Source: Sulfurihydrogenibium sp. (GTDB lineage Bacteria; Aquificota; Aquificia; Aquificales; Hydrogenothermaceae). Taken from it: a stretch of 37,640 nucleotides of DNA. Position 1 is the first letter of the stretch; every line of letters starts with the position of its first letter. Below are positions 24,528 through 37,640 of this stretch, piece by piece. The stretch is from the NCBI RefSeq assembly GCF_028276765.1, contig NZ_JAPYVU010000012.1, positions 1-37,640 on the forward strand, in the 5' to 3' direction. Under the pieces are notes generated by a model. That model was not told the origin of the DNA, made no database searches, and saw only the letters and a program-made list of their open reading frames with translations. Both the position numbers and the translations under genes were made by a program.

Positions 24528-24953
24528 TTAATATAATCTTCTTCTTTGAGAAGCTGTAATTGCTCCAGCCATGCCAATATCTCTTGGAAACTCAGTTCCT
24601 CTTGATGTTGTTTGAACTTCAAGGTCTTCTGTACCAAAGAAAGATTTAATTATTTCCAAAGCTGCTGGAATGTCAAAATCCTTACAAGAGAATATATCTA
24701 TTGAAAAGTATCCTTTCTCCGGAAATGTATGGATACTTATGTGGCTTTCCGCTATGATTACAAACCCTGAAATTCCCCAGTCCTCTGGTTTATCTCCGCC
24801 ATCGTACTTAAATACATACGGAGGCATAATTTTTGTCATTCCGATTTCAGCTGGCAATGTGTCTAAAAAGTTAGTAACAGCCTCTACGCTTGCCAAAGCT
24901 TCAAAATTTCCGTTGTAACCATCGACCATTAAATGGGGTCCAAATCCTATCAA
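24528..24953 (-). CDS. speD: S-adenosylmethionine decarboxylase proenzyme
   Basis: SpeD makes decarboxylated SAM, the aminopropyl donor for spermidine and the long polyamines of thermophiles. The 141-residue proenzyme self-cleaves between Glu69 and Ser70 in [14 protein letters not shown], giving a pyruvoyl group from Ser70; His75 and Cys90 (IFSCKDFD) complete the processing and catalytic set seen in the Thermotoga-type enzyme. A TTG at 24953 is taken as the start. The longer reading with a TTG at 24974 would place the start inside the AAGGAGG ribosome binding site (24964-24970). It diverges from the GlcF-like gene and has its own terminator. Confidence 0.9.
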
Positions 24954-25033
24954 CTCTTGTTTTCCTCCTTTCAAATTAAAATTTGTGGTATAAAAGATAT
25001 ATTAAATTTTCAAGAATGTAAATATATTGTTGC

Positions 25034-25052
25034 ACATTTTTTGTGCAATTTT
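25034..25052. promoter_or_regulatory. Inverted repeat in the speD-glcF divergent region
   Basis: TTGCACA-TTTTT-TGTGCAA is a perfect 7-bp inverted repeat midway between the divergent speD and GlcF-like genes. It could be an operator for either promoter, or a hairpin in a leader. Confidence 0.4.
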
Positions 25053-25097
25053 AAATTTTGTTAATATTTTGGCTTTGAGAAAACATGATTTTCATTA

Positions 25098-25124
25098 TTG
25101 TTAATATTTATTAACCAATATAAA
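25098..25124 (+). promoter_or_regulatory. Promoter with embedded operator for the GlcF-like gene
   Basis: TTGTTA (25098-25103), 15-bp spacer, TATAAA (25119-25124). The palindrome GTTAAT-ATTT-ATTAAC (25100-25115) fills the spacer, so a repressor bound there would block RNA polymerase. The regulator is unknown. Confidence 0.4.
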
Positions 25125-25158
25125 TTTTATACACCTTTAAAATTTAAGGAGACAATCA

Positions 25159-26415
25159 ATGAGTGAACTAATAGAGCCAAAATTAACCATAGAGCTTGCA
25201 CATCAATGCGTTAAATGTTCAGCATGCAGACAGGTTTGCCCCACGTATAGCGTCGTAAAAGAAGAACGTTCTTCTCCAAGAGGTAGGCTTGCATTGGCTG
25301 AAGCCGTTGTAGATGGAATCCTGCCACTTACTGAAGAAGTTGCAGCCCAGTGGAATCAGTGTGCAATGTGTCGCCGTTGTGAGTGGATATGTCCTAACGA
25401 AGTTGAATATAAAGAAATCATGTTTAGAGCCAGAAATATGGCAAAGGAAAAATCAAAGAAAGATTACTTTAAGACAGTGGTTTTCAAAGGTCTTGGAATG
25501 ATGGGAAATCTACTTACAAAAATAGGGATGAAGTTTGCACCAACCTTGATGGAAGCTTACGGAAAGCTTGCAGGTAAAGAGGTTCCTGAATACAATGCTG
25601 TTTATATAGATGTTGGTATTCCTAAATATGCTAAACTAATGCCCAAACCATCTGCAAAACCTTTCGGATTGAGAGGTAAAGAAGTAAAAGCTGAAAAATC
25701 TAAAGGAAGATTGTTATTCTTTACAGGTTGTATGATAGATGCTTTTCAAGGTAAGGTGGGAGAAAGCGTTTTAAAACTTATGGAAAAAGCCGGTTATGAT
25801 GTTGTAGTTCCAAAAGATATAAGATGCTGTGGAGCACCACATCTTTACAGCGGAGAGATAGACGCGTTCAATAAACTTATGAAGCATAATAAGAACGAAA
25901 TAGATAAATACGAGTTTGATTATATCGTAGTTGCATGTCCAACATGTGGTGGAGCTTTAAAAGAAGAGTATAAATACCCAGTTAAGGACTTTGCAGAAAT
26001 ACTTAGAGAAGAAGGGTTCTTAGTGTTTAAAGGCAACGGCGAAAAAGTTAGCTTTCATTTTCCTTGCCATTCTTACACTGCAATGAAAACAGACCCTAAC
26101 GTATTTAGAGATGTAATAAAAAATGTAAAAGACACACAATACGTTGAAGGTGAAGAAGCTATGATGTGCTGCGGTTTTGCCGGATACTTCTCTGTGGCTA
26201 ACTATGAAGTAGCTTCTGAACTTCAAAAAAGAAAAATAGAAGATTTAAGAAAAACCCAGGCAACTTACGTTTTAAGCGATTGTCCGGGATGTGTACTAAA
26301 TTTAGCAGACGGTATGTATAAGCATGGTCATTATAAAGAAGTTAAAGTCATGCACTTAGCAGAATACTTAGCAGAAAGACTTGTAGAGGAAGAAAAAAAT
26401 GAAGGTAAATCTTAA
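25159..26415 (+). CDS. GlcF/GlpC-like iron-sulfur oxidoreductase subunit
   Basis: A 418-residue Fe-S protein. Two [4Fe-4S] ferredoxin motifs are in the N terminus ([12 protein letters not shown] and [12 protein letters not shown]), followed by two CCG cysteine-rich domains ([10 protein letters not shown] with [13 protein letters not shown], and FPCHSYTAM with [11 protein letters not shown]). This is the architecture of glycolate oxidase subunit GlcF and anaerobic glycerol-3-phosphate dehydrogenase subunit GlpC. Such subunits pass electrons from a flavin dehydrogenase to the quinone pool. The flavin partner (GlcD or LutC type) is not adjacent, so the substrate stays open. AAGGAGA precedes the ATG. 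It is coupled to rubredoxin by a 17-bp overlap. Confidence 0.85.
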
Positions 26416-26590
26416 AGAAGAAAAAAATCTCAAATACAGATGCAGAGTTTGTGGCTATGTATACGACCCGGAAAAAGGAGATGAGATTAATCTTATCTCT
26501 CCGGGTGTTGAGTTTATAGATTTACCAGATACTTGGAGATGCCCGGTTTGCAATTACTCTAAAAAAGAGTTTAGAGCTGTTAGAAATTAA
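26399..26590 (+). CDS. Rubredoxin
   Basis: A 63-residue one-iron electron carrier. The four iron ligands are Cys15 and Cys18 in [14 protein letters not shown] and Cys48 and Cys51 in WRCPVCNY. The [14 protein letters not shown] segment is typical. The first 12 residues form a charged extension. Its start lies within the end of the GlcF-like gene, so it is co-translated and may accept or donate electrons in that system or act in oxygen or peroxide defence. Confidence 0.93.
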
Positions 26591-26609: not shown

Positions 26610-27050
26610 TACCTCCATATCTAGAATGTCCTTTACTTTTGCATATGACAGGCTAAATAGTAAAAATGCAAAAGACTTTTTAGAGAAATTAATAAACGTA
26701 ATGCCATTTGAGATAAAAGGAATACAGACAGATAATGGAAGTGAATTCTTAAGTGAGTTTACAAAGCATTAAAGAAAAAAGATATAAAACATTATTTTAA
26801 CTATCCAAGATATCCAAAAGGACAAGCATATGTAGAGAGAATGAATATAAAGATTACGAATTAGAAGATATTCATGAGTTTAATAAAAAGATGCTGCAAT
26901 ATATGCTATGGTATAACACAGAAAGACCTCATCATAGTTTAAACAAAAAATCACCTTTACAATACTTTTGTGATATTATGAATTCAAGTAAATCGGAATT
27001 TTCCCAAACTGGTATGACTTATACACGTAAAAATATTTTTCATTTTTACG
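26610..27050 (+). pseudogene. Decayed DDE (rve-type, IS3/IS481-like) transposase
   Basis: From 26620 one frame gives FTFAYDRLNSKNAKDFL and IQTDNGSEFLSEF with the second catalytic Asp, then a stop at about 26770. A one-base shift restores ALKKKDIKHYFNYP and PKGQAYVERMN with the catalytic Glu. A further internal deletion precedes DYELEDIHEF and LWYNTERPHHSLNKK, reading to about 27050. The N-terminal helix-turn-helix half and first Asp are gone. This is the catalytic part of an integrase-core transposase with at least one frameshift, one deletion and missing 5' half. It lies directly between rubredoxin and the cellulose operon. Confidence 0.85.
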
Positions 27051-27095: not shown

Positions 27096-27380
27096 ATGGA
27101 CGTAAAAAACATAAAAGAAGTGTTTAAGAAAAACAAAGAAAGTAAAAGTTCTATAGCCAAAAGTGATACAATCATAAATACAAAGGATTATGCGTTAGAA
27201 AATGAATTAAATAAAATTTTGAGAAATTACCCTATCTTAAATTATATTAACCAAAATTTAGGAAGTATGGATATAAAAAACGCACTTAAAGAAATTAAAT
27301 CTAAAAATGAAGATGTTGTATATAGTAGTCAAAATATTAAAAATATACAAATATTAAAAACTTTCTTGTTTAAAAAGTAA
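27096..27380 (+). CDS. Small BcsR-like protein, first gene of the cellulose operon
   Basis: A 94-residue, Lys/Asn/Ser-rich cytoplasmic protein without signal or membrane helix. The N-terminal 30 residues look disordered. Residues 38-56 (LNKILRNYPILNYINQNLG) resemble the conserved C-terminal helix of enterobacterial BcsR, which reads L-x-x-x-L-K-R-W-P-L-L-x-x-F. BcsR forms a complex with BcsQ that binds cyclic-di-GMP and is essential for cellulose secretion. The match is short and from memory, so the identity is tentative; otherwise it is an unknown operon-specific protein. GGGGAG precedes the ATG. The bcsA start follows its stop by 2 bp. Confidence 0.5.
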   Translation: MDVKNIKEVFKKNKESKSSIAKSDTIINTKDYALENELNKILRNYPILNYINQNLGSMDIKNALKEIKSKNEDVVYSSQNIKNIQILKTFLFKK

Positions 27381-27382
27381 AA

Positions 27383-29668
27383 ATGAGAAAATCTAAAAAA
27401 GCGGATATAAATGCTATTTTAATTAAAATAGAAGATTATTTACATAAATATTTATCCGAGAAATGGCTTAAAATTCTTTTCTTTCCTGTCTTTATATCAT
27501 ATATAATCTTTATTACAATACCAACGCCGCTATGGGTTCAGTTCTTATCATTTTTGGTCATCTTTTTCTTAACATTAATTTTCATAAAAAACAGAAAAGA
27601 ATCTATTAAAGTATTTATTATTTTGACAGGGGTTTTTGTCTCTTTAAGATACTTTTATTGGAGAACTTTTAACACCCTCAACTTGGATGACGGAATATTT
27701 AATGCGATAGCATCAATAATTCTATATTTAGCTGAGTTATATTCGATGATTATTCTAATTCTAGGATCTTTTATGTCCTTAAGATTACTGGAAAGAAACC
27801 ATATAAATTTAGAAAAAAAAGAAGACTTTTTAACCGTAGATGTATTTATACCAACATATAATGAACCTGTAGAGATAGTTAAAACAACAGCTTTAGCTGC
27901 TATTTCTATGGATTACCCTCAAGATAAATTTAATGTTTATATATTGGACGACGGCGGAACAACTCAAAAATTAAACGACCCAGACCCTGCTAAAAGAGAA
28001 GAAAACCGACAAAGGTCGCAAGCTTTAAAAGACTTTGTGAATGAAGTTGGTGGAAATTTACATTATATTACAAGAGAAAGAAACCTTCATGCTAAAGCCG
28101 GAAACATAAACGAGGCTTTAAAGAAAACAAATGGTGATTTAATCCTAATTCTTGACTGTGACCACGTTCCTGCGAAAGACTTTTTAAAAAGAACAGTAGG
28201 ATTTTTTAATAAATATCCTAAGTTATTTCTTGTACAAACCCCACACTCTTTTTACAATCCAGACCCACTTGAAAAAAACTTAGGAATTTTCAGGATAGTG
28301 CCTTCAGAAGCTGATATGTTTTATAAACATATTCAAAAAGGTTTAGATTTTTGGAGTGCAACTTTCTTCTGCGGTTCTGCAGCAGTACTGAGAAGAAAAT
28401 ACCTACAGGAAGTTGGCGGAATACAGGGTACAACCATCACGGAAGATGCGGAAACAGCCTTAGAACTGCACTCTCTTGGATATGATAGTGCTTACTATGG
28501 TAGACCAATGGTTTATGGCTTACAACCAGAAACATTTTCCGCTTTTGTAGTCCAAAGGACAAGATGGGCTCAAGGAATGATACAAATATTTTTACTTAAA
28601 AATCCTCTCTTTAAAAAAGGTTTAAAGTGGTACCAAAGATTAGGATATTTAAATGCAAATATTTTTTGGTTTTTTGGATTTGCAAGGTTTGTATTCTTGA
28701 TAGCACCCATACTTTATCCAATGTTTGGTGCTCAAATCTACAGTGCAAATATTCAAGAAGCAGCAAGCTACGCTATACCACACTTTATAATGAGTATAGT
28801 TTTATCTTATTACTTGTATGCAAAAGTTAGATGGAACTTTTTCTCAGAAATATACGAAGCTATCCAGTCCATATTTATTCTTCCAGCTATTATAAGCGTT
28901 ATACTAAGCCCGAGAAAGCCAACATTTAAAGTTACCCCAAAAGGAGAAAACCTTGAAGAAGAATTCTTGTCACCTTTTTATAAGCCTGTATATCTTTTGT
29001 TCAATCTTATTGTAATATCATTTTTCTTTAGTTTTTATAGATGGGTTAACTATCCAGATGAAAGAGGTACCGTATTAGTAGTTTTATTCTGGCAAATTTT
29101 TGACCTATTTATTTTAGGTATTGGAATTAGCGTTCTTCGTGAAAGACCTCAAAGAAGAAGAGCATTTAGAATACCTGCAAAAGATGATGTTATTGTTTAT
29201 ACAAAATCCCAAGTTTTTTCAGGAAAAGTTAGGGATATATCCTTAACAGGTATTTGGGTAGAGACAGACCAAGATATCACAGATTACTTGTCGGAAGTAA
29301 GGGATTATTTAATTGAGTTTGTTATTATGGACGCAAGGGGATTGCCTTTCGTTTTAAAAGGTAGGGTCGTAAATGCAAATTCAAAAAATATTAGAGCTCA
29401 ATTTGAAGCAAATACCTTAGAAGATTATAGAAAATTGACGGAAGTCGTATACGCAGATAGTAGTAGGTGGGAAATTTTTAGAGAAGAAAGAGAAATGAAT
29501 CCTATTCAAACCACAATCTTTCTAACAAAAATATTTATAGAAAACTTTACGAAAGCCTATAAAATGGCAACGGCGGAATTTATCAATGAGATTAAAGGTT
29601 TAACACAAAAATTTATGCTAAAATTAAATAAAAAACTGCTAAGGAGGGAATTAAATGAAACTGTTTAA
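27383..29668 (+). CDS. bcsA: Cellulose synthase catalytic subunit with PilZ domain
   Basis: BcsA polymerises UDP-glucose into beta-1,4-glucan and pushes it across the inner membrane. The 761-residue protein has N-terminal membrane helices (about 30-140), a family 2 glycosyltransferase domain (about 150-420) with VFIPTYNEP, YILDDGG, the DCDH metal site (about 258-261), TED in TITEDAETA (about 353), and QRTRW (about 391, gating QxxRW). More membrane helices follow, then a PilZ domain from about 585 with RPQRRRAFR and DISLTGIWVE, the RxxxR and D/NxSxxG pattern that binds cyclic-di-GMP. The enzyme should therefore be switched on by cyclic-di-GMP. It is tightly packed with both neighbours. Confidence 0.95.
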   Translation: MRKSKKADINAILIKIEDYLHKYLSEKWLKILFFPVFISYIIFITIPTPLWVQFLSFLVIFFLTLIFIKNRKESIKVFIILTGVFVSLRYFYWRTFNTLNLDDGIFNAIASIILYLAELYSMIILILGSFMSLRLLERNHINLEKKEDFLTVDVFIPTYNEPVEIVKTTALAAISMDYPQDKFNVYILDDGGTTQKLNDPDPAKREENRQRSQALKDFVNEVGGNLHYITRERNLHAKAGNINEALKKTNGDLILILDCDHVPAKDFLKRTVGFFNKYPKLFLVQTPHSFYNPDPLEKNLGIFRIVPSEADMFYKHIQKGLDFWSATFFCGSAAVLRRKYLQEVGGIQGTTITEDAETALELHSLGYDSAYYGRPMVYGLQPETFSAFVVQRTRWAQGMIQIFLLKNPLFKKGLKWYQRLGYLNANIFWFFGFARFVFLIAPILYPMFGAQIYSANIQEAASYAIPHFIMSIVLSYYLYAKVRWNFFSEIYEAIQSIFILPAIISVILSPRKPTFKVTPKGENLEEEFLSPFYKPVYLLFNLIVISFFFSFYRWVNYPDERGTVLVVLFWQIFDLFILGIGISVLRERPQRRRAFRIPAKDDVIVYTKSQVFSGKVRDISLTGIWVETDQDITDYLSEVRDYLIEFVIMDARGLPFVLKGRVVNANSKNIRAQFEANTLEDYRKLTEVVYADSSRWEIFREEREMNPIQTTIFLTKIFIENFTKAYKMATAEFINEIKGLTQKFMLKLNKKLLRRELNETV

Positions 29669-30179
29669 AGAGAAGAAAGAAGAAAAACAGGAAATTGTTC
29701 AAAATCAAGGAAATATAATAATTGTCCCAGAAAAGTTAAAAGCTTACAATCTTGATATATTAAACAGTTTTCTTAGCACTTTAATATCTATGGCGGATTC
29801 TGAAGATTATAATTACTTTACATCTCGAGTTGCAAGGAATTTTTATGAACAAAATAAGGCATATTTGGAAAATTTAAATAAAATAGGAAACGAAAATATT
29901 GAGCTAATCTGGGAAAATTTGAATATATTTTTTAATTTAAATAATTTAGGAGTCTCTCAAGTAAAAATCAATTTAGAAAATAAAAGTATTAATATTTTTC
30001 ATTACGATTCTTTGTTTGTTAGATATTTAAAAAGTAAAACAAACTTTAAGTTATGTAATTTCTATGCAAATCTATATTCTCTTATACTTTCTAACATATT
30101 CGAGACAGACATAAAAATAATAGAAGAGGAGTGCAGCAATGAAACCGGCAAGGATTTTTGTTTATTTAATATGGTTTAA
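29655..30179 (+). CDS. BcsD-like cellulose operon protein
   Basis: A 174-residue soluble protein between bcsA and bcsB. After a charged N terminus (1-20) it is mainly helical, then has ENLNIFFNLNNLGVSQVKI, a strand pair NKSINIFHYDSL, and a C-terminal FYANLYSLILSNIFETDIK followed by EEECSNETGKDFCLFNM. The layout fits BcsD of Komagataeibacter, which forms a periplasmic octameric ring that aligns chains. The last segment also recalls the V4R small-molecule-binding fold (E-x-C...G...C-x-F). No signal peptide is seen. The function is thus uncertain. GGAGG precedes the ATG, which lies in the last 14 bp of bcsA; it overlaps bcsB by 41 bp. Confidence 0.5.
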   Translation: MKLFKEKKEEKQEIVQNQGNIIIVPEKLKAYNLDILNSFLSTLISMADSEDYNYFTSRVARNFYEQNKAYLENLNKIGNENIELIWENLNIFFNLNNLGVSQVKINLENKSINIFHYDSLFVRYLKSKTNFKLCNFYANLYSLILSNIFETDIKIIEEECSNETGKDFCLFNMV

Positions 30180-32277
30180 TTTAATCATTGTATATATTTC
30201 AAAAGCAAACGAAATGATTGTTCCATTAAAAGATATCGCATTTCAAAATCCAATGCTAAGAAGCATAGAGGCAGAATATAACATAAAGGTTCCAATTCCT
30301 AATAGATTTATAGTAAAAGATATAACATTGCATATAGAAATAGAGAAATCTCCAGCTCTTTTAAAAGAGAGAAGTCACTTTTCAGTATTTTGGAATAATA
30401 AGCTTGCTTATCAATCTGTATATAATCCTTTGGTTGATATAGTTACTGCAGATATTAAATTGCCAACAAATAATTTAGAACCTTTTAATGATTTAAAAAT
30501 AAGGTCTATTCATCATTACTGCCTTAATTGTTGTGAGTTTGAAGGAAGCCCAGAATTATGGTCAAAGATAGATTTAGAAAATAGTTATATAAAAATAACC
30601 TACGATGAAAAGCCTATACTCCAAGATACATTATTAATTAGAGACTATATCTTGGATATGAAAAACTTTAATCCTGTTAAAATCGGTATGATTACTGAAG
30701 ATACAACTGATAAGTATTTAGAACTTGCATCAAAATTATCCGGATATATAGGCTCTTTTATAAGATACAGAAGAATTTTTATAAGTTATCATAAAGAATT
30801 ACCATCAGACCGAGATGTGTTTATAATTGGAACAAAAAGCTTTATAAAAAATTTTCTAAATTTACAAAATGAGAACTTCCCGGATATCTATATTATCCCA
30901 AATCCAAATAACATAACAAAAGCAGTAGTTCTTATTTCAGGAAATTCTTTAGACCAACTTGAAAAGAACGTTAATAATTTCATAAAAGTAAAAAATGAAC
31001 TTTTCACCGGAAGGTTTTATCAAATTTATCAAGGGAAAAATCCAGAAATAGAAAAATTCGAATCAAATAACTTAATACCCTTGGGTAAAAAGGTTTACTT
31101 TTATGATTTGGGCTATGATGATATAAAAGTATCAGGATTATTCCCGCCCCCTGCAGAAATTGAATTTAATATACCGGTTGGCATATTCGTTCAAGGAAAG
31201 AAAAAAATATTATTCCACTTTGCGTACAACTATGGAGCAGGCGCAAGAGAAGACTCTGTCATCAATATTTATTTAAATGATAAATACGTTACATCTTTAA
31301 AGATGGATAAAAAATATGGTGTAGTTTTAAAAGAAGAGGACATTAAAATACCGGCTTATTTATTGGTTCCCGGGAAAAATAAGCTTAAAATTGAATACGC
31401 TATGATGCCACCCGGCGGGGGCTTTTGTATATCTCCAAACTTATACACTCTCAGGGGAACAATCTTTTCACAGCGTTCATACATTCAAATTCCAGAATTG
31501 CCTTTTTGGTTTGAAATGCCTTATTTAGAATTTTTTGTTTCCGATGCTTTTCCATACTCAATTAATCCAGACCTAAAAGAAACAGCTATATATTTATCCG
31601 AGAAAGATCCAAATAACATAACAGCATTATTAACATTATCAGCTTATATGGGAACTAAAATTGGAATGCCTTTCTTAGGTTTAACCGTTACAAGTGATGT
31701 TTCTAAACTTAAAGATAAAGATATTATTGCCTTAGGCAAAAATCTTCCGCTTGAATTTTATAAAAATTCTAATTTAAAAATATCTGATGCTAATATAGAT
31801 TTAAAGTCTCCGGTTTTAAAACTTGTTAAAGAAAGCCTGAAATCTAAAATTTATGGAAATGAGGAAAAAGAAAATAAATTAGCTAAACTAACTTATCAAA
31901 ATGCTTTAACCAACCAAGTATTTTATATCATGGCACAATCGCCTTATAATAATGACAGAACGATTACAATAATCACATCAGAAAATATACAAAATCTTCC
32001 AAATGCTGCATATAGATTATTCCTTCCAAAATATGCAGGAACTATAAAAGGCAATGTTACAATCTGGGATTTCTATATAAATCAGTACTTCAGTGATAAA
32101 ATCAATCCAACATATTTTATTGGATACATGCCATTTTTTGAAAAACTTTTATACGAATTTGGATATTCTCCAACAAAATTTATACTTGGATTTTTAGCTG
32201 TTGTTGTTATTCTTTCTTTAATCATTAAAAAACTTCTTGATATAAGGGAGAAAAGAAGATTAGGAGGTGAAATCTAA
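30139..32277 (+). CDS. bcsB: Cellulose synthase periplasmic subunit
   Basis: BcsB guides the nascent glucan through the periplasm and anchors to BcsA through its C-terminal helix, which is needed for activity. The 712-residue protein has a signal peptide (about 1-23), two repeats of carbohydrate-binding plus flavodoxin-like domains (for example VFIIGTKSF near 230, and the second half from about 335 with GIFVQGKKKILFHFAYNYG and YVTSLKMDK), and a single C-terminal membrane helix (FILGFLAVVVILSLIIKKLL, about 680-699) followed by basic residues. Length is typical. GAGGAG precedes the ATG; it shares 41 bp with the previous gene. Confidence 0.9.
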   Translation: MKPARIFVYLIWFNLIIVYISKANEMIVPLKDIAFQNPMLRSIEAEYNIKVPIPNRFIVKDITLHIEIEKSPALLKERSHFSVFWNNKLAYQSVYNPLVDIVTADIKLPTNNLEPFNDLKIRSIHHYCLNCCEFEGSPELWSKIDLENSYIKITYDEKPILQDTLLIRDYILDMKNFNPVKIGMITEDTTDKYLELASKLSGYIGSFIRYRRIFISYHKELPSDRDVFIIGTKSFIKNFLNLQNENFPDIYIIPNPNNITKAVVLISGNSLDQLEKNVNNFIKVKNELFTGRFYQIYQGKNPEIEKFESNNLIPLGKKVYFYDLGYDDIKVSGLFPPPAEIEFNIPVGIFVQGKKKILFHFAYNYGAGAREDSVINIYLNDKYVTSLKMDKKYGVVLKEEDIKIPAYLLVPGKNKLKIEYAMMPPGGGFCISPNLYTLRGTIFSQRSYIQIPELPFWFEMPYLEFFVSDAFPYSINPDLKETAIYLSEKDPNNITALLTLSAYMGTKIGMPFLGLTVTSDVSKLKDKDIIALGKNLPLEFYKNSNLKISDANIDLKSPVLKLVKESLKSKIYGNEEKENKLAKLTYQNALTNQVFYIMAQSPYNNDRTITIITSENIQNLPNAAYRLFLPKYAGTIKGNVTIWDFYINQYFSDKINPTYFIGYMPFFEKLLYEFGYSPTKFILGFLAVVVILSLIIKKLLDIREKRRLGGEI

Positions 32278-32278
32278 T

Positions 32279-33253
32279 ATGATTAGGGTTTTTATTGTTG
32301 CAATCTTGTTGTTTGGTTTATTTGGTGTTAAAGCTCAGGAATTATCATGGCAGGAATATAAAAATAAATATTTTAGAAATGACAGTTTTATAATAGACCC
32401 TTATAATAACAATAGAGTAACTTCAGAAAGCCAAGGATACGGAATGATTTTGGCTGTTATGTACAATGATAAAGACACATTTTACAAACTTTGGAAATGG
32501 ACCAAAGTAAATATGCTTAGGGAAGATTATCTTTTTTCTTGGCTTTATAACAATGCAATTGTAGATAGAAATAATGCAACCGATGGAGACTTGCTAATTG
32601 CATATGCTTTAAGACTTGCATACTTAAAGTGGAAAAACGAAGAATATTTAGAATATTACAATAAAATTAAAAATAGTATAAAAAGACTAATAGTTATTGT
32701 TTTAGATGAAAAAGAGAGAAAAAATATACTTCTATTGCCTGGAATATATGGCTTTTCGAATGAAAAGTATGATATACAGATTTTTCCTTCATACTACATT
32801 CCTTTCATTTTAAAGGAATTTAAAGATGATAGATTATTTAAACTTAGTTTAGATTACCTTTTGAATAATATAATAACTTTATCTCCATTAACAAATACAG
32901 TTAGATTTAACTTAATAGAAAAAAAGTTATCCTTAAATTCAGAGATAAACATGGATGTCTACAGACTTATTCCTTACTTTTTATTATCAAACTATGATGT
33001 AAAAATATTAAGAAACTCTTTCAAAACAATAGATGAATTCTTTAAAAAAGAAGGTTACATACCGTTGACTTTTAAGCTAAATGAACAAAATCAGACAAAA
33101 CAAGAATCTCCATTTTGTGTTTATAGATGGTTTTATATTCTGTATAATGACGATAAGTATTTTAAAAAGTATGAAGAGCTAAAAAATATTGATAGGAATA
33201 ATTATTTTTGTGATACTTTTGAGTTATTTTTAAATTCAGGAGTGGAAAGATGA
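32279..33253 (+). CDS. bcsZ: Periplasmic endo-beta-1,4-glucanase, GH8
   Basis: BcsZ is the glycoside hydrolase family 8 cellulase of cellulose operons; it trims mislaid or tangled glucan in the periplasm and is needed for good export. The 324-residue protein has a signal peptide (about 1-19, ending near VKA|QE). The GH8 proton donor Glu lies in VTSESQGYGM (family SEGQSYGM), the substrate-binding block is NNATDGDLLIAYAL, and the second acidic residue is in MDVYRLIPYF. The ATG at 32279 is placed 9 bases after AGGAGGTG; a GTG further upstream overlaps that site. It overlaps bcsC as ATGA. Confidence 0.9.
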   Translation: MIRVFIVAILLFGLFGVKAQELSWQEYKNKYFRNDSFIIDPYNNNRVTSESQGYGMILAVMYNDKDTFYKLWKWTKVNMLREDYLFSWLYNNAIVDRNNATDGDLLIAYALRLAYLKWKNEEYLEYYNKIKNSIKRLIVIVLDEKERKNILLLPGIYGFSNEKYDIQIFPSYYIPFILKEFKDDRLFKLSLDYLLNNIITLSPLTNTVRFNLIEKKLSLNSEINMDVYRLIPYFLLSNYDVKILRNSFKTIDEFFKKEGYIPLTFKLNEQNQTKQESPFCVYRWFYILYNDDKYFKKYEELKNIDRNNYFCDTFELFLNSGVER

Positions 33254-36200
33254 ATAAAAAAATTTTATTACCATTCCTATTTTCCTTCTCTTTAAGTCAT
33301 GCTGAAGAAGTTTATAAGCTAATTGTTATTCCACAGAAAGATTACAAGACTACTATTGAATCATTAAAAAATTACGGATTTAATAAATGTTTTTTAGATA
33401 ATAAAAAAATAATCTGTGCTGAATCTAAAGACTCAGCCTATATCCAGAGATTGAAAGATTACTTATCACAATACGGGTTTAATGTGAAAATTGAGATTGG
33501 AAAAACTTCGGTATCACAAAATGAAAATTTAACACCAACGCAAAATGAAGTTTTAAACGTACTAACAAAAGAAATAAAAGTGGAGCAAGAAGTTAAACCA
33601 TTATCAAGCAGTAATCAAGTTAAACAAATCAAAAATCAACAAGAAAAAACTGTTTCTAAAGAAAACTCACAAAAACAGTCTTCTATAAATACGCCCGTAA
33701 AAATACAGACAAAAGAATCAAAAGTAGATCAAGAGCTAAAAAATAAGCAAATGAAAGAAGAATCGTATAAACAGGAAGAGAAAATCCAAAGTGCAGAAAA
33801 AGATTTAGGTTTAAAAGTTAAACTTATGTATGACTTTTTAAATGCCGATAATTTAGAAAAAGCTAAAGAATTAGCTAATCAACTTTTAAAAACTAAATTT
33901 TCAAAAGATGCCAAGTATGTTATCGGATTGATTGCCATAAAAGAAAAAAAATTTGGCACAGCATGCAGAATATTTGAATCCTTAGAATTTAAAAATTCAA
34001 AAGAATTAGAAAAAGATGCATGCTCTGTAGCATTTATGCAAGAAGGATATGATTATCTTGAAAAAAATTCAAATAAAGCAATTGAATTTTTCCAAAAAAG
34101 CTTAAGATATAAGGATAATATAGAATCTCAAGTCGGATTGTTCTATGCTTACCTAAAAACTGACAAATCAAAAGCAGAGAAAATAATTAAAGAACTATAC
34201 AGTAAATACCCTGAAAACGAATCTGTTAAAAAAGCATACGTCCAATATTTGTTAGATAAAGGTGATTTTGCAAGTCTTGAAAAATTCAAAGAATATTTAA
34301 AAGAAGAGGATTTAAAACTTATTAAAGAATCACAGCTATCAAAAGAAATGGAAAATGCTTTAAGATTAATAAAATCAGGTAATTATTCTGAAGCAGAGAA
34401 TATTTTGCTCAAATTATACAAAGAAAAACCATCAAACATAAATGTTTTACTCCTATTAGGATACCTTTATTTAGAAAAAAATGACATTTTAAAAGCTAAG
34501 AATTTTTATGAAAATGCTTTAATGATTGATGGAAACAATACAGATGCTTTAAAAGGCTTGAAAGCTGTTTATATAAAGCTTGAAGATTATGAAAAAGCAT
34601 TAGAAATCATTAAGAAACTACAGCAGAAAGACATCAAAGATCCAGATTATAACAAAATTTATGCATTATATCTTTCAAACAAAGCCCAAGAGCATCTAAA
34701 AGAAGGGAATATAAGGCTTGCTAAAGAATTGGCAGATCAGATTTTATCTTTAGATAAGAATAATCCAACAGCTTATTTAATTTTAGCAGAGTATTACAAA
34801 CAAACAGGAGATAAAAAGGAATATTTTAAAAATATTTCGAAAGCATATGAATTAAAGCCGGATGATTTTGGAATCAAATTAGCTTTTATTTATGGGCTTA
34901 TTGATCTTGATTTTTACGATCAAGCTGAAAATATCATAAAAACAATAGCTACCAAAAACTTATCTGAAGAAGAAAAGCAGCAATTGAAAGAAGTTTACAA
35001 GGTATTCTATCAAAAACTATCTGCATACTATTTAAGCAATAAAGATTATCTTAATGCTAAAAAAGTTGCCCAGGAAGGTTTAATGTTTTTTAAAAATGAT
35101 CCAGACCTTATGGAAATTTTAGGCTGGTCTTGTTATAATCTAAAAGACTATAAATGCAGTGAAGATACATTTAAATATCTCATTGCCTTAAAACCTTCAG
35201 AAAAAAATAAGGTTGGTCTTGCATTTACGTATATGAATCTAAAAAAGTATGAAGAATTAAATAAACTTCTTAAAGAATTGGAAGATACTAATGACCCTGA
35301 AGTTTTAAAAGAAGTAGCAACAATTTATGCGTCAATTGGCAAATACAAAGAAGCAAAAAATATTATAAGTAAATATGAAACACTCAAAAACAGTGCTGTT
35401 TCTACACAAGCCAAAGCAATTACAAGTGAGCCTTTACAAACACTAAAAGAATCTGAAACGAAAAAGACTATAAAAAAAGATACCATTCTGCCGGATATTT
35501 TTAATACCAACAACGATAATACTTATGATAACTTGATTATAGATTCAGAAAAAAAAACAGAAATTTTAACAAACAATGATTATACAGCTCCATCAATCAT
35601 AAACACAATCATAAATAAGACAGAATCTCCTTCTATTGATCATGAAAGAAAGGAAGAAAGATTGAAGGAAGAAACAGAAGAAATAAAAAAAATAATTTCA
35701 GAAAAAGAACAAGATTATCTAACTAATTTATCCACTGGTTTTAAATACAGAAATAAAAGTGGCGAGAGTGGAAAAAGCAAATTATCAGATTTTTCTCCAT
35801 TTGTAAAATTCACATATTTCTTCAACGAAAAACTTTATGCTTATATAGGAACGTATTTTACAGGGTTAAATTCAGGTGGTTTATCGGATTATGCTCATTA
35901 TGGAAGTGTTGGTAATGGAACTATATTAAGAGAGGTTCCATCGTCATATAGTGGTTTAGAGCCATTTGCAGGCTTTGGTTTAAACACAGATAGATTTATT
36001 CTATCTGGTAATTTTGGATTGACCCCAAGAGTGGGCAATGGAATTAGCTCAAAGCCTATTTGGACGATTGAAGGCAAGATTGTAAATAATGATAAAAAAA
36101 TTGGTTTAGGGTTGTATAGAACTCCAATAAGAGATTCAATCTTATCTTATGTAGGAAGTATTGACCCATATTCTTACAATAGCTGGGGAAGAGTATATGA

Positions 36201-36777
36201 AGAAGGCATAAAAGTTTCTTATGAAAACAAAATAGGAGAGAAAGATTCTTTAATATATAGTGAGGCAAGATTTGGAAAAATAAAGGGAGAATTTACAGAA
36301 GAAAACACAGATACTAATGTTCTCTTAATGCCAAAAGTCTACTATGGAAAATTAATAGGAGATGAAGATTATATCGGTGCATTTTTCTTGTATAACCACT
36401 TTAGTAAGAGACAAGATTGTTATTACTTTGGATGTGGCGGATATTTTTCTCCAAAAAGTTTACTTATAGCTGCACCCATGCTTGAAGGCTTTAAGTTTTT
36501 TGACGATAGAAATGGAATTCATTATAAAGTATTCTTAGGTCCGCTGCTTTGGTCTGACGGTCAAAAAAATAATACAGATATCTCTTTGGATGGTTATATA
36601 TCATATGTTTATTTGTTTAACAAAAACTTAACATTTAACATTGCCGGAGAATACAGAAAAACCCAGAAGTATAATGAACTATTCTTTACAGCCTTTATCA
36701 AATATTTCTTTGGAAATAGAATCAGCATAACAAAACAGGATTTTCTTAATTTGGAAAAGGAGATTTATAAATGGTAA
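33250..36777 (+). CDS. bcsC: Cellulose export TPR scaffold and outer-membrane barrel
   Basis: BcsC carries the glucan across the outer membrane. The 1175-residue protein has a signal peptide (about 1-18), an N-terminal beta-alpha-beta-like module (about 20-80, EVYKLIVIPQKDYKTTIESL... to YGFNVKIEI) that resembles a SPOR domain, a Gln/Lys-rich disordered linker (about 85-190), about 14 TPR motifs (about 195-715), a second low-complexity linker (about 717-825), and the C-terminal BcsC barrel (about 827-1175) with TPIRDSILSYVGSIDPYSYNSWGRV collapsed into the family pattern RDSxLSYxGxxDPY, and GGYFSPKSLL. The SPOR-like part is unusual for BcsC and could bind peptidoglycan. It is coupled to bcsQ by a 7-bp overlap. 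Confidence 0.9.
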   Translation: MNKKILLPFLFSFSLSHAEEVYKLIVIPQKDYKTTIESLKNYGFNKCFLDNKKIICAESKDSAYIQRLKDYLSQYGFNVKIEIGKTSVSQNENLTPTQNEVLNVLTKEIKVEQEVKPLSSSNQVKQIKNQQEKTVSKENSQKQSSINTPVKIQTKESKVDQELKNKQMKEESYKQEEKIQSAEKDLGLKVKLMYDFLNADNLEKAKELANQLLKTKFSKDAKYVIGLIAIKEKKFGTACRIFESLEFKNSKELEKDACSVAFMQEGYDYLEKNSNKAIEFFQKSLRYKDNIESQVGLFYAYLKTDKSKAEKIIKELYSKYPENESVKKAYVQYLLDKGDFASLEKFKEYLKEEDLKLIKESQLSKEMENALRLIKSGNYSEAENILLKLYKEKPSNINVLLLLGYLYLEKNDILKAKNFYENALMIDGNNTDALKGLKAVYIKLEDYEKALEIIKKLQQKDIKDPDYNKIYALYLSNKAQEHLKEGNIRLAKELADQILSLDKNNPTAYLILAEYYKQTGDKKEYFKNISKAYELKPDDFGIKLAFIYGLIDLDFYDQAENIIKTIATKNLSEEEKQQLKEVYKVFYQKLSAYYLSNKDYLNAKKVAQEGLMFFKNDPDLMEILGWSCYNLKDYKCSEDTFKYLIALKPSEKNKVGLAFTYMNLKKYEELNKLLKELEDTNDPEVLKEVATIYASIGKYKEAKNIISKYETLKNSAVSTQAKAITSEPLQTLKESETKKTIKKDTILPDIFNTNNDNTYDNLIIDSEKKTEILTNNDYTAPSIINTIINKTESPSIDHERKEERLKEETEEIKKIISEKEQDYLTNLSTGFKYRNKSGESGKSKLSDFSPFVKFTYFFNEKLYAYIGTYFTGLNSGGLSDYAHYGSVGNGTILREVPSSYSGLEPFAGFGLNTDRFILSGNFGLTPRVGNGISSKPIWTIEGKIVNNDKKIGLGLYRTPIRDSILSYVGSIDPYSYNSWGRVYEEGIKVSYENKIGEKDSLIYSEARFGKIKGEFTEENTDTNVLLMPKVYYGKLIGDEDYIGAFFLYNHFSKRQDCYYFGCGGYFSPKSLLIAAPMLEGFKFFDDRNGIHYKVFLGPLLWSDGQKNNTDISLDGYISYVYLFNKNLTFNIAGEYRKTQKYNELFFTAFIKYFFGNRISITKQDFLNLEKEIYKW

Positions 36778-37508
36778 TTATTCCAGTTATATCATTTAAA
36801 GGGGGTGTTGGAAAATCAACAGTTGCCCTAAATTTTGCTGCAGAATTATCTAAATATTATAAAACTCTATTAGTAGACACAGACCCACAAAATAGTTTGG
36901 CATTTTTTCTTTGTAAAGACTTTAGCAAAGGATTATCAGAAATATTGTTTGAAAATTTGGACCCAGAAAAAGCAATCCATAGAGAAGTAAATAACGAGCC
37001 AAATCTTGATTTTATACCGGCAGGAACTTTTTGTTTAAAAAACCAAACCTTTTACGAAGATAATTTTAATATGGAAAACTTAAAAAAATTTTTAAACAAT
37101 GAGGCTATCAAAAATTACGAATTTGTTATGTTTGATACACCGCCAAGAATTAACCAACATATCGAAACGCTCATAGAAGTCGGTAATTATAGTTTAATGG
37201 TTTTAACACCTGACCCTGCGACATTCTCTTCGTTTGTGATTTTTGAAAAATTTTTTGAAGATAAAGAATACATCGGTAAAATTTTAGCTATAATAAATAA
37301 AACAGAGCCATCAAAAGTTGAAGAAGATTTTGCAAGGATTATCAAGTATAAATTAGGAGAAAAATTTTTGGGTTTTACGCCAAAAGACAATAACGTTGTA
37401 GAATCTCAGGGTAAATGTATCCCTACCGTGTTTTATAGTCCTAACTGTGCTTTTTCTGTTTTCATGAAAAAGATTGTTTTAAAATTTATAGATTTAATAA
37501 AAATATAA
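36771..37508 (+). CDS. bcsQ: BcsQ, ParA/MinD-type ATPase of cellulose synthesis
   Basis: BcsQ is the SIMIBI-class ATPase that localises or assembles the synthase, in E. coli as a complex with BcsR. The 245-residue protein has the deviant Walker A in FKGGVGKST (Lys10 and Lys15), Walker A' VDTDPQNS (Asp36, Asp38), and the FDTPP switch region. Length matches BcsQ (about 245). AAGGAG lies 8 bases before the ATG. In enterobacteria bcsQ precedes bcsA; here it closes the operon. A generic ParA function is possible, but the tight coupling to bcsC makes BcsQ much likelier. Confidence 0.88.
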   Translation: MVIIPVISFKGGVGKSTVALNFAAELSKYYKTLLVDTDPQNSLAFFLCKDFSKGLSEILFENLDPEKAIHREVNNEPNLDFIPAGTFCLKNQTFYEDNFNMENLKKFLNNEAIKNYEFVMFDTPPRINQHIETLIEVGNYSLMVLTPDPATFSSFVIFEKFFEDKEYIGKILAIINKTEPSKVEEDFARIIKYKLGEKFLGFTPKDNNVVESQGKCIPTVFYSPNCAFSVFMKKIVLKFIDLIKI

Positions 37509-37557
37509 AATACACTTTGGGTGAGAAATTCAAATATAAATAAAACATCTAAAAAAA

Positions 37558-37606
37558 CTCCTTGGTGGCAGTTAAAATTGTAATAGCAAAAATTCCACCA
37601 AGGAGG
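37558..37606 (+). promoter_or_regulatory. Hairpin sequestering a ribosome binding site
   Basis: CTCCTTGGTGG (37558-37568) is a perfect reverse complement of CCACCAAGGAG (37595-37605), an 11-bp stem with a 26-base loop. The right arm contains the AAGGAGG ribosome binding site of the ORF starting at 37612, so translation would be blocked when the hairpin forms. IS10 and IS50 use such hairpins to silence read-through transcripts of their transposases. Confidence 0.65.
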
Positions 37607-37611
37607 TAAAA

Positions 37612-37640
37612 ATGCAAAACTCTAATCTTTATTTTACAAT
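37612..37640 (+). CDS. Start of an unidentified ORF cut by the window edge
   Basis: ATG 5 bases after AAGGAGG (37600-37606), then MQNSNLYFT up to the edge. Too short to identify. Its ribosome binding site is covered by an 11-bp stem, and GGGTGAGAAATTCAA stands about 90 bp upstream (37519), also found inside a repeat at 17182. Both features fit an insertion-sequence transposase, but this is only a guess. Confidence 0.4.

Follow-up and report, generated by a model that had tools for sequence, protein, structure and literature searches.

The types of Bcs systems and the roles of BcsD, BcsP, BcsR and BcsQ within them have been described previously, and the N-termini of BcsP proteins were reported to be homologous to BcsR (PMC11470070). 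In cellulose-producing Proteobacteria, BcsD arranges the cellulose synthases. Within the Aquificota, Aquifex aeolicus and Hydrogenothermus were named as cellulose producers in a 2022 review, in which the BcsA of A. aeolicus serves as a reference (PMC10086821). In the V4R sensors PoxR, MopR and DmpR, zinc is held by three cysteines and one glutamate (PMC7264223, PMC10715001). The window, which is the whole stretch of 37,640 nucleotides analyzed here, makes up contig C12 in a genome of 1.75 Mb. From the sequence alone, it had been read as carrying a complete cellulose operon, gated by c-di-GMP, and as coming from a probable Aquificota thermophile. The assignment of the host was confirmed, as the genome falls in the Hydrogenothermaceae and in the same genus as G101 (Sulfurihydrogenibium sp.). 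The claim of a complete, gated operon is supported by the gene set and by the catalytic, gating and PilZ motifs. The operon itself is of a kind known for the phylum, and the V4R zinc signature in its BcsD is the added, less ordinary part.

Gene content and layout of the bcs operon

Seven genes on the plus strand form the operon (27096–37508), with neighbors that overlap or sit 2 bases apart in the list of open reading frames. All seven frames were recovered at the coordinates and on the strand given by the sequence-only reading, which had described them as overlapping or nearly touching. The identities it gave to bcsA, bcsB, bcsZ and bcsC are borne out by Pfam and NCBIfam scores far beyond chance. 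The same gene set and order are found in related genomes by locus comparison; gene set, motifs and conserved order are read directly from the DNA.

The catalytic subunit of the synthase is encoded by bcsA (27383–29668, plus strand). A score of 898 bits was obtained against the TIGR03030 CelA equivalog model, for which the cut-off is 699. The PilZ domain occupies residues 590–690, as the earlier assignment of bcsA with PilZ had proposed. The DDG, DxD, TED and QxxRW motifs and the gating loop FxVTxK are present in an alignment to the R. sphaeroides BcsA (5ej1), and the c-di-GMP site of the PilZ domain (RxxxR and DxSxxG) is kept relative to the same solved structure. Six matches to GGDEF proteins, one of them weak, appear over the cut-off elsewhere in the genome.

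The BcsB, BcsZ and BcsC genes lie in one operon of abutting genes with the BcsA gene, and PF03170, PF01270 and PF05420 are all matched over their cut-offs. The periplasmic co-polymerase gene bcsB (30139–32277, plus strand; PF03170, 327 bits) encodes a protein with a C-terminal membrane anchor, the hydrophobic stretch being residues 676–694; E. coli BcsB matches it over its full length with an E-value of 2e-32. The GH8 endoglucanase gene bcsZ (32267–33253, plus strand; PF01270, 111 bits, E 1e-31) encodes a signal-like N-terminus and conserves the residues aligned with the catalytic E55 and D243 of E. coli BcsZ. The product of bcsC (33250–36777, plus strand) is a TPR protein with an outer-membrane barrel, identified by TPR families and by PF05420 (BCSC_C, 83 bits, E 2.6e-23). 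In one Aquificaceae operon, BcsC has an N-terminal SPOR domain (E 1.1e-4; L048:9702–10061); in another, a SPOR protein of its own (E 9e-13; L047:14221–14895) is encoded next to bcsA. The same N-terminal position in the BcsC of the window (33250–33609) has diverged past detection of SPOR by Pfam.

The last gene, as the sequence-only reading had it, is bcsQ (36771–37508, plus strand), which follows bcsC and encodes a MinD-type ATPase with a KGGVGKS Walker-type loop. Its identity is partly secured: the match to Pfam CBP_BcsQ is over the cut-off (37 bits, cut-off 21, E 3.4e-9), but the match to TIGR03371 is weak and lies under it (74.5 bits, cut-off 157.85, E 8.9e-21).

The first gene, orf1 (27096–27380, plus strand), encodes 94 amino acids and is a possible BcsR/BcsP-type small partner of BcsQ, by its position, its KW/RW helix and hhalign. 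In the Aquificota loci with enough upstream sequence, a small gene with the conserved KW/RW helix precedes bcsA. An hhalign score of 17.1 was obtained for orf1 against BcsR/BcsP, relative to a permutation maximum of 15.0; the score is weak, and the RW helix is aligned at the expected place. No match to PF10945 (BcsR/BcsP) was found in Pfam for five members of the orf1 family at E-values up to 1 or 10. The earlier label of orf1 as BcsR-like is kept as suggestive and was rejected as a proven assignment. The counterpart of orf1 in G079 is broken by an apparent frameshift in an A run (L045:11940–12190, minus strand), possibly an assembly error.

The operon is genuine and, judged by its genes, probably working. 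Taken as a whole, the locus is very likely a functional-looking, type I-like operon for the synthesis and export of cellulose, with both product and export predicted from the genes. The class is given as type I-like, the type I Bcs systems having been defined on a proteobacterial BcsD that does not carry the cysteines discussed below. It is unlikely that the product is a modified or different glucan instead of plain cellulose. Accessory subunits do set the form of the product in known systems (PMC11470070), but the BcsA of this operon scores far over the cellulose synthase cut-off, and a Pfam search of the seven operon genes returned no pEtN transferase-like or acetylation gene. BcsE, BcsF and BcsG were likewise absent among the seven genes in Pfam.

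In a cellulose operon of this type, the GGDEF proteins encoded elsewhere would supply c-di-GMP, and its binding to the PilZ domain of BcsA would release the gating loop. BcsA would then polymerize UDP-glucose to the predicted β-1,4-glucan, and the chain would reach BcsB by way of the membrane channel of BcsA. Export over the outer membrane would be the task of BcsC, and trimming of the glucan that of BcsZ. BcsQ would hold the synthase active, perhaps together with orf1 as a BcsR/BcsP-type partner, and BcsD would act as a cytosolic scaffold that arranges the synthases.

Identity, fold and predicted zinc site of BcsD

A divergent bcsD (29655–30179, plus strand) lies between bcsA and bcsB and encodes a protein of 174 residues with the V4R-type zinc ligands C134, E157, C160 and C169. 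The description of this gene as BcsD-like was upheld by profiles and structure only, since the single-sequence matches are weak and none of them reached the BcsD cut-off. Cellsynth_D matches six of the ten Aquificota BcsD proteins (best E 2.9e-4), and the best score for one member is 20.8 bits, relative to a cut-off of 23. V4R (PF02830) matches nine of the ten (best E 8.7e-8); the BcsD of the window scores 17.5 bits and its relative in G101 34.8 bits, relative to a cut-off of 31. In hhalign comparisons, the Aquificota BcsD family scored 45.6 against V4R (permutation maximum 21.3) and 31.6 against proteobacterial BcsD (permutation maximum 13.2). When the profiles of proteobacterial BcsD and V4R were compared directly, the score was not significant. 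In 10 of the 11 Aquificota BcsB loci, bcsD immediately precedes bcsB; the sole locus with no bcsD before bcsB is that of G006 (L049:2633–2758).

The AlphaFold model of the BcsD of the window has a mean pLDDT of 79. When the model was searched against the PDB, solved BcsD structures occupied ranks 1–12 (E-values 6.5e-5 to 1.7e-4). The sensor domains of the V4R proteins MopR, DmpR and PoxR came next, and H-NOX, Bet3 and MJ1460 after them. The E-values of all these groups are close, which makes the order of the hits modest evidence when taken by itself. As a control, a model of an ordinary Aquificota V4R protein (pLDDT 73) was searched identically. V4R, H-NOX and TRAPP structures appeared in its top 50 PDB fold matches and BcsD did not, so the protein encoded in the operon is specifically BcsD-like. 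A sequence search of the PDB with the BcsD alignment returned nothing relevant, and the fold search alone gave matches. The predicted fold match and the conserved ligand residues are what the sequence shows.

The four ligand residues are invariant in the alignment of ten Aquificota BcsD proteins. The pattern C-x22-E-x2-C-x8-11-C, as read from the alignment, is found in 10 of 10; a version with x7-9 for the last gap picks up 8 of the 10. The C-x22-E-x2-C spacing is identical in PoxR, MopR and DmpR. The zinc-ligand pattern is carried by 24 of 24 Aquificota V4R proteins and by none of the 17 proteobacterial BcsD proteins. The DmpR paper numbers the glutamate as 172, and the aligned sequence implies 174. 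The earlier reading of the gene stands with respect to BcsD, but the V4R-type zinc signature had been missed. The Aquificota BcsD keeps a predicted V4R-type four-ligand zinc site, whose role would most likely be structural, by analogy with the sensors.

The gene could instead encode a V4R-type ligand sensor that was recruited to the operon for small-molecule control of the synthase and is not BcsD. The V4R profile is indeed matched by more members, and more strongly, than Cellsynth_D, the hhalign score to V4R exceeds that to BcsD, all four zinc ligands are retained, and V4R proteins are frequent in the Aquificota. Against this are the top 12 ranks of the solved BcsD structures and their absence from the top 50 of the control. 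In addition, with a profile built from the ten Aquificota BcsD proteins, the only strong hits in the phylum were those ten members themselves, all located in bcs operons, and the next matches were ordinary V4R proteins with E-values of 1e-9 to 1e-4. Recruitment of a sensor is accordingly considered unlikely. As a separate observation, stand-alone V4R proteins are common and highly conserved in the phylum (e.g., L069–L098), and V4R is matched in 79 of the 136 genomes.

The simplest reading of the BcsD results is shared ancestry, with the predicted site retained in the Aquificota BcsD. They suggest that BcsD is a member of the V4R/TRAPP/H-NOX superfamily, with an ancestral metal site kept in the Aquificota. 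A BcsD with V4R ligands and a predicted fold matching BcsD would place BcsD in that superfamily, and the Aquificota protein gives structural studies a BcsD from a thermophile. It is quite unlikely that this BcsD combines the scaffold with a metal-bound V4R-type sensor, whose zinc-cysteine site or pocket would respond to a ligand, metal or redox state and tune cellulose synthesis, and that the proteobacterial BcsD arose from a sensor of this kind by loss of the site. No published link between BcsD and V4R and no statement on the origin of BcsD were found in the literature searched; subscription papers on the BcsD structure, which were outside the search, may hold such a link.

Flanking repeats, BcsA phylogeny and distribution in the Aquificota

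A decayed transposase remnant with an integrase-core fragment (26620–27026, plus strand) is found directly upstream of the operon. Its reading frames are broken, and the rve_3 match (E 6e-5) falls on the tail, which is intact. The same genome has about 29 other matches to this remnant, some full and some partial. A multicopy repeat starts a few bases after the stop codon of bcsQ (37514–37640, plus strand), and the contig ends inside it. About 30 near-identical copies of this repeat are present in the genome, several of them at contig ends. The region upstream of the left repeat (24528–26590) contains genes for an iron–sulfur CCG-domain protein and a rubredoxin, together with a putative SpeD-like gene on the minus strand.

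Of the 136 Aquificota genomes, 11 have a BcsB that is full or near-full; seven of them belong to the Hydrogenothermaceae and the other four to a single genus in a second family. The sequence-only reading had called such an operon unusual for this group. That claim is weakened by the producers already named in the review cited above and by these 11 genomes, although the distribution is patchy. BcsB is found in only three of the seven genomes of the genus of the window, so cellulose cannot serve as the matrix throughout the group. In 41 more genomes, the BcsB matches are weak and cover part of the profile only, and these were not counted as cellulose operons. Two of the weak loci (L050 and L051) were examined and rejected as cellulose operons, as they hold a GT2 protein 23–24% identical to BcsA; they are possibly a different polysaccharide synthase system.

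Recent acquisition of the operon from outside the Aquificota would agree with this patchy distribution, with the repeats on both sides, and with a gene GC of 0.21–0.32 in the operon, which is below the mean of 0.335 for the 12 other genes of the window. It would also agree with the neighbors of the operon, which differ among the genomes with readable flanks (G098, G066, G079, G104, G001 and G004). However, the eight Aquificota BcsA proteins form one clade with an SH-aLRT of 99 in an unrooted tree of 42 rows, in which the outside sample is almost all Pseudomonadota, and their identity to outside proteins is at most 48%. Such an acquisition is left with a slim chance. A recent donor in the Pseudomonadota or Campylobacterota was judged unlikely from the single Aquificota clade and from a clear BcsA in only 1 of 200 Campylobacterota genomes. 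The data fit movement inside the phylum, or many losses, better than they fit recent donation by an outside lineage. The single form of the operon and the single BcsA clade bear on whether cellulose is old in the phylum or has moved within it.

Comparison with described Bcs systems and V4R sensors

The bcs locus of G001 shares with the window the form of BcsD, the order bcsD-bcsB-bcsZ-bcsC-bcsQ and the small KW-helix gene before bcsA. It differs in that bcsA is located beyond bcsQ on the opposite strand and in that BcsC is encoded in two overlapping frames (L047:10505–13497), either by a frameshift or by a true split. The E. coli type II system (bcsRQABZC/bcsEFG) shares BcsA, BcsB, BcsZ, BcsC and a BcsQ-type ATPase with the operon of the window, which has BcsD and no BcsE, BcsF or BcsG among its genes. 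The bcsQ gene is last in the operon of the window and near the start in E. coli.

The V4R/XylR_N sensors PoxR, MopR and DmpR, along with MJ1460, share the predicted fold and the C-x22-E-x2-C spacing with the BcsD of the window. The fold of the latter is closer to BcsD, it has no attached effector domain, its gene sits in a cellulose operon, and the last cysteine is 8–11 residues on in the Aquificota BcsD proteins instead of the 7 found in the sensors. The proteobacterial type I and hybrid bcsPDQ systems share BcsA with PilZ, BcsB, BcsC, the BcsD fold and a BcsQ-type ATPase, and possibly the BcsR/BcsP-type small protein, which in the window does not carry the proline-rich tail of BcsP. Relative to these systems, bcsD is positioned between bcsA and bcsB, bcsQ is last, and the BcsD protein is very divergent and keeps the three cysteines and the glutamate of the V4R zinc site.
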